Source: Bacteroidota bacterium
GTDB lineage: Bacteria > Bacteroidota > Bacteroidia > B-17B0 > Aurantibacillaceae
NCBI GenBank assembly: GCA_021156365.1
Contig: JAJNDK010000019.1
Span: 1-40,990, forward strand
Length of the DNA stretch: 40,990 bases
Reading direction: 5' to 3'
Of the stretch, positions 30,155 to 35,819 are shown piece by piece. Below the pieces are notes generated by a model. That model worked only from the letters and a program-made list of their open reading frames with translations, ran no database searches and was not told the DNA's origin. The position numbers and the translations under genes were made by a program. Position 1 is the first letter of the stretch. The number at the start of each line of letters is the position of its first letter.

Positions 30155-32236
30155 TTATTTATTTTTAGCGGCCTTGAATTTATTGATGGCTTCATCCATC
30201 CATTGGATATATTCGGGAATGCCTGATTTATAACCACGTGGAGCGCTCATAGGCTGCTCATAATGATCCAGGATCACATACAGGGGTTGTGAGCTTTGCT
30301 TGTAGCGCGTTTCCTGCATATACTTGAATTTGTCGCCGATATCGGTTATTTCGTATTCTTCGCCGTACCAGTTCACCTTCATGTAGTCCTTCGGATCGAG
30401 AGGTCTTTTATCGTCCACATAAAGCGAAACCAGTACCACCTCATTGTTAAGGCGTTTTACGATCTCCGGATCGGGCCAGATATAATCTTCCGTTTTCCTG
30501 CAATTGGCGCAGGCGTGGCCGGTAAAGTCGACCATTAAAGGCTTTCCGGTCTTTTTTGCATAAGCAAGGGCTTTGTCATAGTCATTCTTGAAATGAACGA
30601 TCCCGTTCTTATTGGTTTCGATATACTGTGAGAACTCATCATCTGTTTTAGTACCCGCCTGCGGCGACATAGTATTCCCTCCGAAACCATGTGGCGACTC
30701 GGAATATTCCAACGGAGGAAGTACACCTGAAAACAGTTTCAGTGGAGCGCCCCACAGGCCCGGGATCAGGTAAACAGTTATAGAGAATGAAATGATCACG
30801 AAGAAAATGCGGGTAACGGATAAGTGCTTTGTATCACTGTCGTGAGAAGTTTTGAAAAGCCCCATCAGGTAGAAAGTGAGCAAAGCAAAAATAACGATCC
30901 ACAGGGTAATGAATACCTCTCTTGTAAGAATGTGCTTCTGCCATACCAGATCAGCATTGGAAGCAAATTTCAATGCCAATGCCAGTTCTAAAAATCCCAG
31001 GGTTACTTTCACTGCATTCAGCCATCCGCCTGATTTTGGCATCGAATTCAGCCATCCCGGAAAAGCAGCAAACAAACCGAAGGGCAATGCAAGTGCAAGG
31101 GAGAAACCAAACATACCCCAGAAAGGCCCCGAGTAATTGCCCTGTGATGAGGCTTCCACCAGTAGTGTTCCGATGATAGGCCCTGTACAGGAAAAAGAAA
31201 CCAGTGCCAGTGTAAAGGCCATAAAGAAAATACCCATCAGCCCGCCTTTATCCGATTTCGAATCCATTTTATTTACAAACGCGCTTGGTAGTGTAATTTC
31301 AAATGCACCAAGGAAAGAAGCGGCAAATACGACCAGTAACAGGAAGAAGAATAAATTGAACCAGGCATTGGTAGAAAGCGTGTGAAGTGCGCCGGCTCCG
31401 AACACCGCCGTCACAATAAGACCAAGTGCTACATACAATACGATAATAGAAACGGAATAGATCAAAGCATTACGAACCCCTTGTTTCTTGGTTTTACTTT
31501 GTTTGGTAAAAAAACTAACGTTCATCGGGATCATTGGAAATACACAGGGAGTGAGCAATGCAGCAAAACCTCCTACAAATCCCGCCAGAAAGATAGACCA
31601 CCATGGAGAATCTACAGTTACTTCTCCGTCTGCCGGCTCGTTGGAATTGAAAGGGGAAACAGTGGCTGATTTGCTTGTGGCCGAATTGTTTTTTACTACG
31701 GCAGTTTTTAAGCTGTCTGTAAGTGTATCTGCAGCATTGTTGAGTTCAATTAGTTTAACACTCCCAACTTTACAATCGCTCGCATCAATATCGATTGAAA
31801 ATTTCTTTGCCGGCGGGAATTCGCACATCGCATCCGTACAAACCTGATATTCGTATTTGCCTTTCAGGGTGATCTTACCTGCTTTTAGGGTTTTGATCCT
31901 TTGGGTAAATGTAGCTTCACCATCAAAAGACCGTACTTCAACCTCAAATACAGGATCCATCTCGGTTTTCGGTGTGCTTTCTTTTAGCTTCCCAACCACT
32001 TCGTACTCATCACTTTTGTTGAATTTGACGGAAGTTGGATTGGGGCCATCCTTGGAAGGGATAATACTGTATAAATGCCACGGCTCGTCGATCTTTACGG
32101 AAAATACAATATCGTATTCACAATCATTTACTTTCACCGGTTTTATCATCCAGTGCGCATGCAATTGCTGAGCATTAGCATTCGCAAAGAATAAAATTCC
32201 GAATAGTGCAAAAAGTAGTTTCCTTAACATAGGCAT
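30155..32236 (-). CDS. dsbD: Thiol:disulfide interchange protein DsbD
   Basis: 693 residues (start 32236 or, two codons later, 32230). It carries electrons from cytoplasmic thioredoxin to periplasmic thiol proteins. All three parts are present: N-terminal immunoglobulin-like domain (about 24-155) with Cys133 and Cys138 (QVCTDAMCEFPPA); eight-helix membrane domain with Cys231 (LLTPCVFPMIP) and Cys350 (FSCTGPIIG); and C-terminal thioredoxin-like domain with CANC (Cys576, Cys579) in DFTGHACANCRKTEDY. The signal peptide ends near NANAQ. A second gene encoding only a copy of the N-terminal domain lies directly upstream. A TATCTTTG promoter box lies 23 bases upstream. Confidence 0.95.
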   Translation of the reverse strand: MPMLRKLLFALFGILFFANANAQQLHAHWMIKPVKVNDCEYDIVFSVKIDEPWHLYSIIPSKDGPNPTSVKFNKSDEYEVVGKLKESTPKTEMDPVFEVEVRSFDGEATFTQRIKTLKAGKITLKGKYEYQVCTDAMCEFPPAKKFSIDIDASDCKVGSVKLIELNNAADTLTDSLKTAVVKNNSATSKSATVSPFNSNEPADGEVTVDSPWWSIFLAGFVGGFAALLTPCVFPMIPMNVSFFTKQSKTKKQGVRNALIYSVSIIVLYVALGLIVTAVFGAGALHTLSTNAWFNLFFFLLLVVFAASFLGAFEITLPSAFVNKMDSKSDKGGLMGIFFMAFTLALVSFSCTGPIIGTLLVEASSQGNYSGPFWGMFGFSLALALPFGLFAAFPGWLNSMPKSGGWLNAVKVTLGFLELALALKFASNADLVWQKHILTREVFITLWIVIFALLTFYLMGLFKTSHDSDTKHLSVTRIFFVIISFSITVYLIPGLWGAPLKLFSGVLPPLEYSESPHGFGGNTMSPQAGTKTDDEFSQYIETNKNGIVHFKNDYDKALAYAKKTGKPLMVDFTGHACANCRKTEDYIWPDPEIVKRLNNEVVLVSLYVDDKRPLDPKDYMKVNWYGEEYEITDIGDKFKYMQETRYKQSSQPLYVILDHYEQPMSAPRGYKSGIPEYIQWMDEAINKFKAAKNK

Positions 32237-32258
32237 AAGCTGATCGGTTTATGGGCTC

Positions 32259-32266
32259 CAAAGATA
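32259..32266 (-). promoter_or_regulatory. -7 promoter element of dsbD
   Basis: TATCTTTG on the minus strand (32266-32259). About 27 bases further upstream lies GAATTCATAAAAAA on the plus strand (32294-32307), which recurs at the same place upstream of the duplicate gene. Confidence 0.62.
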
Positions 32267-32385
32267 CTAAAACAGGCTACGTTCAGCCATCCCGAATTCA
32301 TAAAAAAGTTCAATTATTTGGTTTGGGAAAAAGCCTTTCCAGGGCCTGATTTCTATGCTTTTACGGTAAAAGACCATTGGTCAAA

Positions 32386-32835
32386 TTATATTTCAACAGA
32401 GAATTTTTTGGCAGGAGGGAATTCGCAGGCCCCTTCTTTGCAGATCTCGTATTCATATTTTCCATCTATCGTCACCTTACCGGGTTTTAAAACTTTGATA
32501 CGCTGTGTAAAGGTTGCCGTCTTTTCAAAATAGCTTACCACCAGTCCGAATCCATCATCCATTTCAGATTTTGCTTTGCTTTCTTTCAATTTACCAACCA
32601 GCTGAAAGGCTCCGTTCTCATTGAACCGGACTTCTGTTGCTCTCGGGCCAACTCCCTCTACCGGTATTGAACTGTAAATGTGGAATTGAGGATCTATTTT
32701 CACGGTGAAAACAATGTCGTATTCATTCGTATTCACCTTCACTGCTTTTACATTCCATAGCGTGTGAAGCAGCTGGGCATGAGCGCTTGTAATGAACAGA
32801 ATGCCTGCTGTAAGTAGAAGTAGTTTTTTGATCAT
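32386..32835 (-). CDS. Stand-alone DsbD N-terminal-domain protein (duplicate of the dsbD 5' end)
   Basis: 149 residues from the ATG at 32835, chosen because IKKLLLLTAGILFITSAHAQ is the signal peptide and because a TATCTTTG box lies 22 bases upstream. The mature part is a single DsbD-alpha-like domain, similar along its whole length to residues 24-150 of DsbD (shared VKVN-EYDIVF-VKID, VGKLKES, ATFTQRIK-LK-GK-T, KYEY, CEFPPAKKFS). The redox pair is kept: Cys132 and Cys137 in ICKEGACEFPPA. It ends exactly where the domain ends. Probably an additional electron acceptor of the DsbD membrane domain or a carrier to particular substrates; inference. Confidence 0.8.
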   Translation of the reverse strand: MIKKLLLLTAGILFITSAHAQLLHTLWNVKAVKVNTNEYDIVFTVKIDPQFHIYSSIPVEGVGPRATEVRFNENGAFQLVGKLKESKAKSEMDDGFGLVVSYFEKTATFTQRIKVLKPGKVTIDGKYEYEICKEGACEFPPAKKFSVEI

Positions 32836-32856
32836 AGCTGTTTGTTTTGAGTATTT

Positions 32857-32864
32857 CAAAGATA
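32857..32864 (-). promoter_or_regulatory. -7 promoter element of the DsbD-domain duplicate
   Basis: TATCTTTG on the minus strand (32864-32857), identical to the dsbD box, with the shared upstream word GAATTCATAAAAAA on the plus strand at 32893-32906. Confidence 0.62.
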
Positions 32865-32934
32865 AGATAACAGCCTTCCTTCCGCTAATCCGGAATTCAT
32901 AAAAAAATGCAATTTTTCGACTTTGGAACAGGGG

Positions 32935-33501
32935 CTATTTGATCGCCTTGAACGAAGCAATGATAGCGTCCAATTTTGCTTTTTGCTGTTGGAGCATATA
33001 CGGCTTGCCCCATATGTACATAAGGAAATAGGTGGCGCCGAAATGACTTTCGAAACGATAAGCAACATAATCCTTAAAACGATTATCGGACGAACCGGAG
33101 GGCTTCAGTTTCGAAACCTGTTTTTCCCACACAAGGAAATCGGTTTTAACCGTATCCACTTTTTCCACATGCACAAATCTATACTGCCAGACACTCTGTC
33201 TTTTTTCTGCGTTGACATGTTTGCGGTCGCTCGGGTAGGCCGCCATGTAGATGTACTCAAAATCACTACCGCCCGGCACTTTCCACGCATTCAGCACACC
33301 TGCGCAGGCACATAGATTATTGCCGCCCGGTGTTTCCCAGTCTACTTTGAAAAAAGGTGTGGTTACCCAGTTGGAAGGTACTTCGTATTCCATATTGAGC
33401 TCCGGCAGCGAAACTTTTGTTAGCTTCGACGTATCCACTTTGGCCTGTGAGAACAAAGTGTTGCACGCGAAAAGCAGTGATATGAAATACAGTTTGTACA
33501 T
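32935..33501 (-). CDS. Secreted CxC protein, paralogue A, unknown function
   Basis: 188 residues with signal peptide (YKLYFISLLFACNTLFSQ). Mature protein has only two cysteines, Cys64 and Cys66, in VDWETPGGNNLCACAG. It is similar to the neighbouring paralogue over its full length (LPELNMEYEVPSNW, FKVDWETPGG, YIYMAAYPSD, NAEKRQSVWQYRFVHV, KPSG, YLMYIWGKP, IIASFKAIK). The general pattern (short strand-rich domain, PxxW at the start, ASFK-type end) resembles small secreted proteins of the PsbP/DUF1795-like kind, but I do not claim the family. Start overlaps the upstream stop (TAATG). Confidence 0.68.
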   Translation of the reverse strand: MYKLYFISLLFACNTLFSQAKVDTSKLTKVSLPELNMEYEVPSNWVTTPFFKVDWETPGGNNLCACAGVLNAWKVPGGSDFEYIYMAAYPSDRKHVNAEKRQSVWQYRFVHVEKVDTVKTDFLVWEKQVSKLKPSGSSDNRFKDYVAYRFESHFGATYFLMYIWGKPYMLQQQKAKLDAIIASFKAIK

Positions 33502-34052
33502 TATTTCAGGGGTTTAAACGATTGAACGATCAGGTCGACTTCCTTTTTATGTTCTTTCAGCATGGCCGGTTTACCAATGATGTAAAGCAGGTAATGTGTG
33601 GGGCCGGATGCGGATGTTCCTGCCAGGCGATAAGCAGCATAACCCTTGAACTGGCTCTCGTAGGTGCCAATGGGTTTCAGCATAGAGATCTTCTGATCCC
33701 AGGTCATAAATTTCGTTTTTACTTTTTCCGTTTTGGTGACGGGCACAAAGGTGTACCGCCAGAGGTTCTGCCTTTTTTCCGTGTTCACCTTTTTCTCATC
33801 GCTTGGATAAATGATCACATACAGATAATCGGCAACGCCTTTGCCTGGAATTTTGAATGAGCTGACAGCCACAGCACAGGGACAAACATCGCTGCCACCC
33901 GGTGTTTCCCAGTCCGATTTGAAAAATGATTTGGTTTCCCAGGTATCCGGGGCATCGTATTCCATATTCAGATCGGGCAGGGTAATTTTTTTTTGTGCGA
34001 AGACCTGACTTGCGGCTATAAAAAGGGAAAGGGTTAGTATTCGGTGTATCAT
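33501..34052 (-). CDS. Secreted CxC protein, paralogue B, unknown function
   Basis: 183 residues with signal peptide (HRILTLSLFIAASQVFAQ). The only cysteines in the mature part are Cys57 and Cys59 (SDWETPGGSDVCPCAVA). About 45 percent alike to paralogue A by eye, with the same KRQ-x-(L/V)-W-(R/Q)-Y-x-FVPV and IGKP blocks. Start codon overlaps the arfB stop (TGATG) and its stop overlaps the start of paralogue A, so arfB-B-A are translated as a coupled chain. Function unknown; a CxC pair in an exported protein next to DsbD suggests a thiol-redox or metal-binding role. Confidence 0.68.
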   Translation of the reverse strand: MIHRILTLSLFIAASQVFAQKKITLPDLNMEYDAPDTWETKSFFKSDWETPGGSDVCPCAVAVSSFKIPGKGVADYLYVIIYPSDEKKVNTEKRQNLWRYTFVPVTKTEKVKTKFMTWDQKISMLKPIGTYESQFKGYAAYRLAGTSASGPTHYLLYIIGKPAMLKEHKKEVDLIVQSFKPLK

Positions 34053-34480
34053 CAGATGTGTACTTTTTTTCGGGTTGATTTTATTTCACTGCGTTTCTCT
34101 TTGCTTTCTTTCTTTCTTTTCAGGGAAGCTTTGGTAGGAGCGCTTGCTTTCCTTGGCTTTGGCTTCTCCAGGCTTTTTTCCATCAGGGTGAGGAATTTTT
34201 TCACGGCCAGCTCCTTGTTCTTATGCTGCGATCGGTCCCTGTCCTCACTAAGGTGAAGCACTCCGTTTTCGCTCAGCTTGTTTTTTAGCTTTTTGCGGGC
34301 CAGCTCTTTTTGCTCATCTGTGAGGCACAATGAATTTTCGAGGTCAAAGAAAAGCTCTATCTTGGTAGCTACCTTGTTTACGTTTTGTCCTCCTTTTCCG
34401 CCACTCCTGGCTGTGGAGAACCACAATTCTTTTACAATTCCTTTTGTTAGCAAAGTTTTCTGGCTCATCGTTTGCGTCAT
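34052..34480 (-). CDS. arfB: Alternative ribosome-rescue factor ArfB (peptide release factor-like)
   Basis: 142 residues from the ATG at 34480 (34468 also possible); the frame is open to 34615 but that part overlaps the divergent amidase gene and its signal peptide. ArfB hydrolyses peptidyl-tRNA on ribosomes stalled without a stop codon. The catalytic GGQ (30-32) lies in TARSGGKGGQNVNKVATKIEL. The C-terminal tail is strongly basic (KPKPRKASAPTKASLKRKKESKEKR), as needed to enter the empty mRNA channel. Length matches the E. coli protein. First gene of a coupled chain with two secreted proteins. Confidence 0.92.
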   Translation of the reverse strand: MTQTMSQKTLLTKGIVKELWFSTARSGGKGGQNVNKVATKIELFFDLENSLCLTDEQKELARKKLKNKLSENGVLHLSEDRDRSQHKNKELAVKKFLTLMEKSLEKPKPRKASAPTKASLKRKKESKEKRSEIKSTRKKVHI

Positions 34481-34508: not shown

Positions 34509-35819
34509 ATGCTAAAATTGAAACAATCACTTTTAGTCCTTTTTTTAACTGCCTGTGCGGGCTCCTGTTCTGCACAAAATCCCGCTGTTCCTGTCTTCCA
34601 GAACCGCTTTGCCAACTATCTCAATTTTAAAGGTTCATTGAGTCCCTTTGTTTCCATTACGGGGAAAGATGTGAGGATCTATAAAAATTCCAACGATAAA
34701 GCACGTGATCAGCCGGAACTATTGATCGATTACAGTGAGATCAAAACATTTGAATACCTGCTCAAATATGCACCACAGGACAGCATCGAGTCGATCCTGA
34801 AGCGGAAAGGCCCGAACAAATGGAGCAAGAAAACAGTTGCCGAGCTGATGATCCAGTACGAGGATGAACCACGTCAGCTGAGGGGCACGAAGCCATTGGA
34901 AGGAAAAAAAATACTCATCGATCCGGGCCATATTGCCGGAACTCCTGAAATGGCTTTCATGGAACAAAAATACATCCGTTTTGTAAGAGATTCGTTTCCT
35001 GCCCTGCCAATGGATTCAGTGAAAATACAGGAAGGCGTGTTGACATATGCGACGGCGGCCATCCTGAAAAAACGACTGGAAGAGCAGGGAGCAAATGTAG
35101 TGCTGACACGGACGGAAAATAAGACTGTGTTCGGTAGCACCTACAACGACTGGCTGAATACGCGGAAGAAAAAAGTACTGGATTCGCTTAAAACATCAGG
35201 CAGCATAGATCTAACAAAATACAAACACCTGCTGGTTGCAAATGATCATGATTTTTTCTGGGAATTTTTCCGTGACTTTGAGCTGGCAGCCCGTGGACGT
35301 TTTATCAACCGGCAAAACCCGGATCTCACGCTCATTATTCATTACAACGTAGATGAGAAAAATACGGATTGGGTGCGCCCCAGCGATAAGAATCTGACCA
35401 TGGTTTTTATGCCCGGTGCCATGAGCAGCGATGTTTTCAAAAGCTATAACGGCAAACTGAATTTTTTGCGCCTGTTGCTTACCGATGATCTCCCGCTTTC
35501 CGAAAGGATATCCGGCCTCACCCTGCAGGAATTCAACAAGCAGCTCGGCATTCTTCCTGCTGAAAAGAAGGATGCGCTGTACCTCGAAGAGAATTGCATG
35601 GCGACCGCACAGAAAGGTGTTTTTTGCAGGAACCTCGCCCTGTGCAAATCAGTGAAATCTCCTCTCGTGTACGGCGAATGTCTCTTCCAGGACAACCGGA
35701 ACGAATTCATGGAGCTTAGCCGCACCGATAAGGTCTTTTATGGTGTTCACACAAATACCCGCGTAAAAGCAGTAGCAGATGCGTATTTTAACGCGGTTAT
35801 GCAGTTTTACAAAAAATAG
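34509..35819 (+). CDS. N-acetylmuramoyl-L-alanine amidase, exported
   Basis: 436 residues from the ATG at 34509; a longer open frame exists upstream but it runs antisense to arfB. Signal sequence KLKQSLLVLFLTACAGSCSAQ with possible lipoprotein cysteines (LTAC or AGSC). The amidase_3 fold is recognised by KILIDPGHIAGTPEMAFMEQK (Zn-binding His and Glu), LTYATAAILKKRLEEQGANVVLTRT and LTLIIHYNV (second His). The usual family motif is DPGHGG; here it is DPGHIAG, and a long insert (about 215-275) separates strands. It should cut the amide bond between MurNAc and the peptide stem. Only 28 bases divide its start from arfB on the other strand. Fourteen bases upstream of the response regulator. Confidence 0.82.
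   Translation: MLKLKQSLLVLFLTACAGSCSAQNPAVPVFQNRFANYLNFKGSLSPFVSITGKDVRIYKNSNDKARDQPELLIDYSEIKTFEYLLKYAPQDSIESILKRKGPNKWSKKTVAELMIQYEDEPRQLRGTKPLEGKKILIDPGHIAGTPEMAFMEQKYIRFVRDSFPALPMDSVKIQEGVLTYATAAILKKRLEEQGANVVLTRTENKTVFGSTYNDWLNTRKKKVLDSLKTSGSIDLTKYKHLLVANDHDFFWEFFRDFELAARGRFINRQNPDLTLIIHYNVDEKNTDWVRPSDKNLTMVFMPGAMSSDVFKSYNGKLNFLRLLLTDDLPLSERISGLTLQEFNKQLGILPAEKKDALYLEENCMATAQKGVFCRNLALCKSVKSPLVYGECLFQDNRNEFMELSRTDKVFYGVHTNTRVKAVADAYFNAVMQFYKK

Follow-up and report, generated by a model that had tools for sequence, protein, structure and literature searches.

An unnamed exported protein family of one Bacteroidota lineage with an invariant CxC motif and a predicted PsbP-like fold

Two adjacent genes of a Bacteroidota genome, here called CxC-A and CxC-B, belong to an unnamed, lineage-restricted family of exported proteins that carry an invariant Cys-x-Cys (CxC) motif on a predicted PsbP-like fold, a modest but real finding. 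We give a probability of roughly 0.4 to the reading that each is an exported PsbP-fold protein whose CxC would serve as a thiol/disulfide pair in a mobile loop, rather than part of a dedicated DsbD module. A DsbD pathway finds no support other than the adjacency of the genes within a single genus, and the part worth a test is the company that these genes keep with ribosome-rescue genes.

Results

Two CxC genes are chained to arfB

The window, meaning the whole 40,990-nucleotide stretch of DNA that was analysed, is contig C15 of a 5.3-Mb genome. Its minus strand carries, in order, arfB, CxC-B, CxC-A, a free DsbD-alpha gene and dsbD. The ribosome-rescue peptidyl-tRNA hydrolase gene arfB (34052..34480, minus) was identified by NCBIfam NF006718 (116.5 bits, cut-off 100) and a GGQ motif. 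CxC-B (33501..34052, minus) encodes a 183-aa exported paralogue with the sequence CPC in the stretch WETPGGSDVCPCA, and CxC-A (32935..33501, minus) an exported protein of 188 aa with CAC in the stretch WETPGGNNLCACA; a WETPGG..CxCA stretch is common to both. Signal-peptide-like N-termini were recognised by eye on both proteins, and the third cysteine of CxC-A lies inside that N-terminus (by eye), in agreement with the original prediction of two secreted paralogues with two mature cysteines each. At the arfB/CxC-B junction, TGATG, stop and start codons share one base, and the CxC-B/CxC-A junction, TAATG, has the same one-base overlap, confirming the predicted chaining of the pair and arfB. Pfam domain matches likewise placed the two DsbD-related genes after the pair: the free DsbD-alpha (DsbD_N) gene (32386..32835, minus; PF11412, 35.9 bits, cut-off 25) and dsbD (30155..32230, minus; DsbD_N, DsbD_TM and thioredoxin-like domains). 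Divergent from arfB, at 34509-35819, lies a further exported gene that is retained in both genus mates and whose product has a DPGH stretch suggestive, by eye, of an amidase-like enzyme.

CxC-A and CxC-B share 45-48% identity. Of the two, CxC-A is nearest to the orthologues that the genus mates have as single copies (68% and 64%), while CxC-B shows 45-48% identity to the other copies of the genus and is the faster-evolving duplicate. Comparison of CxC-A with its orthologue in the genus mate G002 gave identities of 80% and 79% at codon positions 1 and 2 and 40% at position 3, which indicates purifying selection. The WETPGG-CxC pair is taken to be beyond chance because of the paralogue identity, this selection and the retention of both cysteines in homologues described below.

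Searches of Pfam (E up to 1) and NCBIfam gave no match for either protein. A viral or defence origin was rejected: no relative of CxC-B was found in viral contigs, PADLOC had no match for either protein, and the PHROG search gave a single match, for CxC-A alone, to a PHROG without known function (E 0.89).

The family is lineage-specific and keeps both cysteines

A profile search revealed a CxC gene in 46 of the 87 genomes of the window's taxonomic family, spread over 6 of 10 genera; three of the relatives, both genus mates included, are metagenome-assembled genomes. Samples of the class and the phylum yielded 9 of 395 genomes, all nine from the same taxonomic family, and 1 of 395, the window itself, at a depth of only 8 candidates scored per genome, so that remote members could be missed. 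No CxC gene was found in 59 tmRNA or arfB flanks outside the taxonomic family (30 tmRNA and 29 arfB loci, about 1.5 kb per side), the best profile match having an E of 0.11. The family is lineage-specific, found here only in one Bacteroidota family.

Conservation was assessed in an alignment of 47 proteins from 46 loci of 45 genomes, which leaves aside the fragments in G444, a stretch of 30 residues in G451 and the second part of a frame-broken copy in G463. The first cysteine is present in all 46 proteins that reach its position, which the frame-broken G463 copy does not, and all 47 have the second, at identities to CxC-B as low as 20%. Loss of the motif among homologues had been named beforehand as grounds for giving up the idea; the motif was conserved throughout. 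A conserved Cys pair in an exported domain, the mark by which thiol exchange was judged, was thereby found, and it measures conservation, not reactivity. In CxC-B numbering, further near-invariant residues are W38, W48, K93 and R94 (46 of 47 each) and Y82 (47 of 47). A Trp occupies position 159 in 45 proteins, CxC-B itself having Ile there, and Glu or Asp follows the second Trp in 45 of 46. Between the cysteines stands Lys or Arg in 29 of 47 members and Asn, His, Ala, Gln or Pro in the remainder. No column of the alignment has His in 85% of its rows.

When 16 members were each searched alone against Pfam, single weak, unrelated matches were obtained (best E 0.029), and the family profile matched no PDB sequence. 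Among the matches listed from the open-licence PMC literature, none described the family. The original proposal is supported in this part: the pair is real, has no Pfam or NCBIfam family, looks exported and belongs to proteins with an invariant CxC.

A tree of 45 members (omitting G454, which is cut, and G463) splits at its midpoint root, with long branches, into 39 and 6 rows. The larger part includes every tmRNA-linked copy in the tree; the smaller holds the four arfB-linked proteins, the copy in G031 and the second copy of G437. The last of these, on contig C393 (L076), belongs to the window's clade and is not beside arfB; it lies 9 bp behind a gene that looks by eye like a short-chain dehydrogenase, and could be contamination (4% listed).

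A PsbP-like fold is predicted for both proteins

AlphaFold2 models of CxC-A and CxC-B reached mean pLDDT values of 71.4 and 71.5, and both rest on the same five sequences, so that their agreement is not independent. The best structural match of both was the cyanobacterial PsbP 2xb3, with Z 11.0 over 138 residues at 3.3 Å for CxC-A and Z 11.8 over 137 residues at 3.2 Å for CxC-B; PsbP and Mog1 entries fill most of the top rows for both models. Foldseek gave the CyanoP structure 2lnj as the best match of CxC-A (E 4.4e-5). A PsbP/Mog1/DcrB-like alpha-beta fold is predicted for the two proteins on these grounds, while no profile of the PsbP, Mog1 or DUF1795 sequence families matched them (Pfam for both proteins and the 16 members; NCBIfam). 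In both models the CxC falls at or just past the end of a loop with pLDDT below 50 (residues 52-66 in CxC-A, 45-58 in CxC-B), shortly before a core strand, and this CxC-bearing loop is the least confident part of each. Listed structures of the fold comprise photosystem accessory proteins, Mog1, Eag chaperones and immunity proteins, and sharing it does not give a function.

dsbD neighbours CxC genes in one genus only

The order arfB, CxC, dsbD occurs in all three genomes of the window's genus, and these three are the only CxC loci, among 46, with dsbD nearby; the flanks compared vary in length and some contigs are short. Because dsbD is present in 84 of the 87 genomes of the taxonomic family and CxC in 46, presence and absence lend a DsbD-CxC link no support.

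In the window, dsbD and the free alpha gene each have a -7-like element of their own, TATCTTTG, at 32259..32266 (minus) before dsbD and at 32857..32864 (minus), 29 bp before the free alpha gene; in each of the three genomes of the genus it precedes dsbD by about 28-36 bp. We take TATCTTTG to be of the Bacteroidota -7 type, for which we assume the consensus TAnnTTTG, a pattern whose frequency in the window is 0.057 per 100 bp per strand. The genes downstream of CxC vary: the copies in G003 and G018 precede an M28 peptidase, and those in G028 and G431 a Mur-ligase-like gene. Own promoter-like elements and variable downstream genes together argue against a fixed DsbD partner.

The free alpha gene has a local origin. 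Comparison of 32386-32940 with 30155-32330 gave three repeat pairs spaced 599-605 bp, and the free alpha protein is 56% identical to the alpha domain of DsbD, both domains retaining the cysteine pair; by its sequence, the gene is a local tandem duplicate of the 5' part of dsbD and its upstream region. In other genera, 16 of 17 dsbD loci (L110-L126, all except L126) have a more divergent free DsbD_N gene of about 150 aa immediately before dsbD; these loci were chosen mostly for a second match on the same contig, so that 16 of 17 is not an unbiased rate. A free alpha gene upstream of dsbD is thus a family habit and not part of a CxC module. The window's genome has an additional, divergent free DsbD_N copy on another contig (G000:C16:304791-305204).

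CxC genes recur beside tmRNA

Outside the window's genus, ARAGORN showed that most CxC loci have a tmRNA next to the CxC gene. By comparison of coordinates, for which only tmRNA matches over the Rfam cut-off counted and a second such match in G024 was set aside, the CxC gene is divergent from tmRNA, with 64-221 bp between, in 36 of the 46 CxC-bearing genomes. The ten others are seven with tmRNA elsewhere (the three of the window's genus, G031, G003, G018 and G032), two with no tmRNA over the cut-off (G456 and G034, in which 269 bp separate the start of the CxC gene from the end of the contig) and G444, whose CxC gene is in fragments. Over the Rfam cut-off, tmRNA was found in 77 of the 87 genomes, with or without CxC.

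The shared intergenic regions were compared in 17 cases (18 rows minus L069, where the start codon was read too far upstream). TAnnTTTG faces tmRNA in 16 of the 17, against a mean of 2.3 and a maximum of 7 in 500 base shuffles; TAnnTTTA/G faces CxC in all 17, against a mean of 4.9 and a maximum of 11 in as many shuffles.

In 22 of 33 genomes that lack CxC, the first gene on the 5' side of tmRNA belongs to an S41 peptidase, beta-lactamase-like or alanine-dehydrogenase-like cluster; these cluster names rest on one scanned member each. CxC therefore lies between tmRNA and an otherwise shared block. The S41 peptidase was rejected as a partner of the Prc/Tsp kind, being next to tmRNA without CxC too, and its one scanned member has an S41 domain and no PDZ. 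Also rejected was the idea that the neighbour of tmRNA in the window's genus is an unrecognised CxC relative: it is another gene, thioesterase-like by sequence reading, in 3 of 3 genomes, and none of the 40 tmRNA flanks compared matched the profile at E up to 10. Integration is known to occur at tmRNA genes; in six loci (L023, L024, L067, L068, L079 and L086) the next gene upstream of CxC, beyond tmRNA, belongs to a serine-recombinase cluster, of which one member was scanned.

The window's genus, whose CxC genes are away from tmRNA, has them directly behind arfB, with an overlap in the window, 3 bp of spacing in G002 and direct abutment in G001. ArfB-like matches, some of them only release factors, occur in 85 of the 87 genomes of the taxonomic family. 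In the G031 member of the arfB clade the contig is cut, and arfB is not seen beside CxC. Elsewhere the distance between arfB and CxC is about 6.6 kb in G028 (L020) and G431 (L067) and about 20 kb in G018 (L025), a hint that the region has a common ancestry rather than that the two genes work together. In G018 (L025 2965-3432) a gene that looks peroxiredoxin-like by eye is divergent from CxC; G003, its sister, has a different gene at that position.

Discussion

We propose that CxC-A and CxC-B, members of a lineage-specific family, would be soluble proteins exported to the envelope. They would adopt a PsbP/Mog1-like alpha-beta fold, with the Cys-x-Cys pair where a long mobile loop ends, just ahead of a core strand. 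In the periplasm, the pair may make and break a disulfide, either within the protein or as a mixed disulfide shared with a partner, and the protein could then act as a thiol-switch or thiol-exchange factor. Its gene neighbours tmRNA stably in most of the family, with promoter-like elements placed back to back; in the window's genus it follows arfB instead, and in this genome it has been duplicated. The redox role, like any partner, is something we infer, from the invariance of the CxC, the lack of a His column at 85%, the basic middle residue in 29 of 47 members and purifying selection; it appears the most likely mechanism. The peroxiredoxin-like gene divergent from CxC in G018 is also in its favour. 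Against it, a middle residue that varies among Lys, Arg, Asn, His, Ala, Gln and Pro is unusual for a tuned redox motif, and the same pattern would be expected of a structural disulfide or of a metal site assisted by the acidic residue that follows the second Trp.

A metal site is one rival: CxC is a common soft-metal motif, and the pair might coordinate Cu, Zn or an Fe-S centre, possibly between the two subunits of a dimer or jointly with the acidic residue nearby, in a periplasmic metal carrier or sensor. The acidic residue in 45 of 46 members fits this, as does the zinc in the title of one listed structure of the fold (4n7s, Tse3-Tsi3), but only two cysteines and no His column are conserved, and no metal transporter or chaperone was recognised among the part of the neighbours read by eye or scanned; we consider it rather unlikely. 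The CxC could instead merely shape a ligand-binding loop, as in PsbP-fold binders such as the photosystem accessory protein PsbP, Mog1, Eag chaperones and Tsi3-type immunity proteins. Many listed structures of the fold are binding proteins by title, and conserved aromatics and the Lys-Arg pair accompany the motif; conservation of both cysteines around a free middle residue would nevertheless fit chemistry better than loop shape, and this reading too seems improbable. The original prediction had at its core a reducing path in which the CxC pair would be dedicated partners of DsbD and the free DsbD-alpha, with DsbD-alpha holding the CxC reduced, and it expected homologues to be linked to dsbD. 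In its favour are the gene order in all three genomes of the genus and the cysteine pairs kept in both alpha domains. The linkage, however, was found in 3 of 46 loci from one genus, with no dsbD in the fetched flanks of the other 43; dsbD is near-universal while CxC is not, and too common for co-occurrence to discriminate; both DsbD-related genes have their own promoter-like element; and the free alpha is a local duplicate of a kind common upstream of dsbD in the biased sample from other genera. The module was rejected on linkage, promoter-like elements and the local origin and commonness of free alpha genes, and we consider a reducing path of this sort very unlikely.

The link with ribosome rescue had been played down earlier as perhaps only transcriptional, yet the rescue side is what recurs, with tmRNA in 36 of 46 genomes and arfB in 3 of 3 of the genus. 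The CxC protein might handle truncated or tmRNA-tagged polypeptides in the periplasm, or guard export under stalling stress, as an exported arm of ribosome rescue. The divergent arrangement, the elements facing both genes in numbers above the shuffled maxima and the coupling to, or abutment on, arfB in the very genus that has no CxC at tmRNA would all fit, and the periplasmic protease Prc is reported to degrade ssrA-tagged proteins in vitro (PMC7481392). By our own estimate, the chance of a CxC gene landing at random beside one of a handful of rescue genes, among some 4000 genes, is a few in a thousand, for a pattern that was seen first. Against this, the two-part tree makes each linkage count as about one event: the tmRNA adjacency is probably one inherited arrangement of one clade, and the arfB adjacency one event in one genus, a coincidence noticed after the fact. 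Both rescue systems are found in most genomes of the taxonomic family, the two other members of the arfB clade were not seen beside arfB, the S41 peptidase also flanks tmRNA without CxC, and the 59 flanks outside the taxonomic family hold no CxC gene. A part in rescue is therefore highly doubtful, and the company of tmRNA and arfB may be shared ancestry plus one coincidence. Weighing these alternatives, we prefer the exported thiol/disulfide protein, tentatively.

The family has no Pfam or NCBIfam match, yet it combines an invariant CxC in a PsbP-like exported protein with a habit of divergence from tmRNA. If that habit, and the one with arfB, is functional, an exported protein would be tied to both tmRNA and ArfB; we know of no earlier example, and to our knowledge little is understood of what becomes of rescued polypeptides whose export has already begun. 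If it reflects only inherited gene order, the CxC protein would still be a thiol protein, and the result corrects a tempting DsbD story.

Among known systems, DsbD and the free DsbD_N protein are the neighbours of the CxC genes in the window, and the free alpha passes the PF11412 cut-off. The CxC proteins, in contrast, match no DsbD domain, and outside the window's genus they are not beside dsbD in the fetched flanks. PsbP/CyanoP and the wider PsbP-Mog1-DcrB-like fold (PDB 2xb3, 2lnj, 1eq6 and 6e8a) resemble them in predicted fold and size, but identity to 2xb3 in the structural alignments is only 6% and 11%, and the invariant CxC is the trait that defines the CxC family against PsbP and Mog1 proteins. 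A comparison within the same phylum is offered by BT_1490 of Bacteroides thetaiotaomicron (PDB 3hlz), whose first 130 or so residues align with Z 9.8 and 10.4 at 12-13% identity, although it is longer, at 268-269 residues. CxC thiol motifs are known from Mia40 (CPC) and Hsp33, whose folds are unrelated to that of the CxC proteins. There, too, two cysteines stand one residue apart, and CxC-B has the same CPC as Mia40, whereas across the CxC family the middle residue is not conserved.
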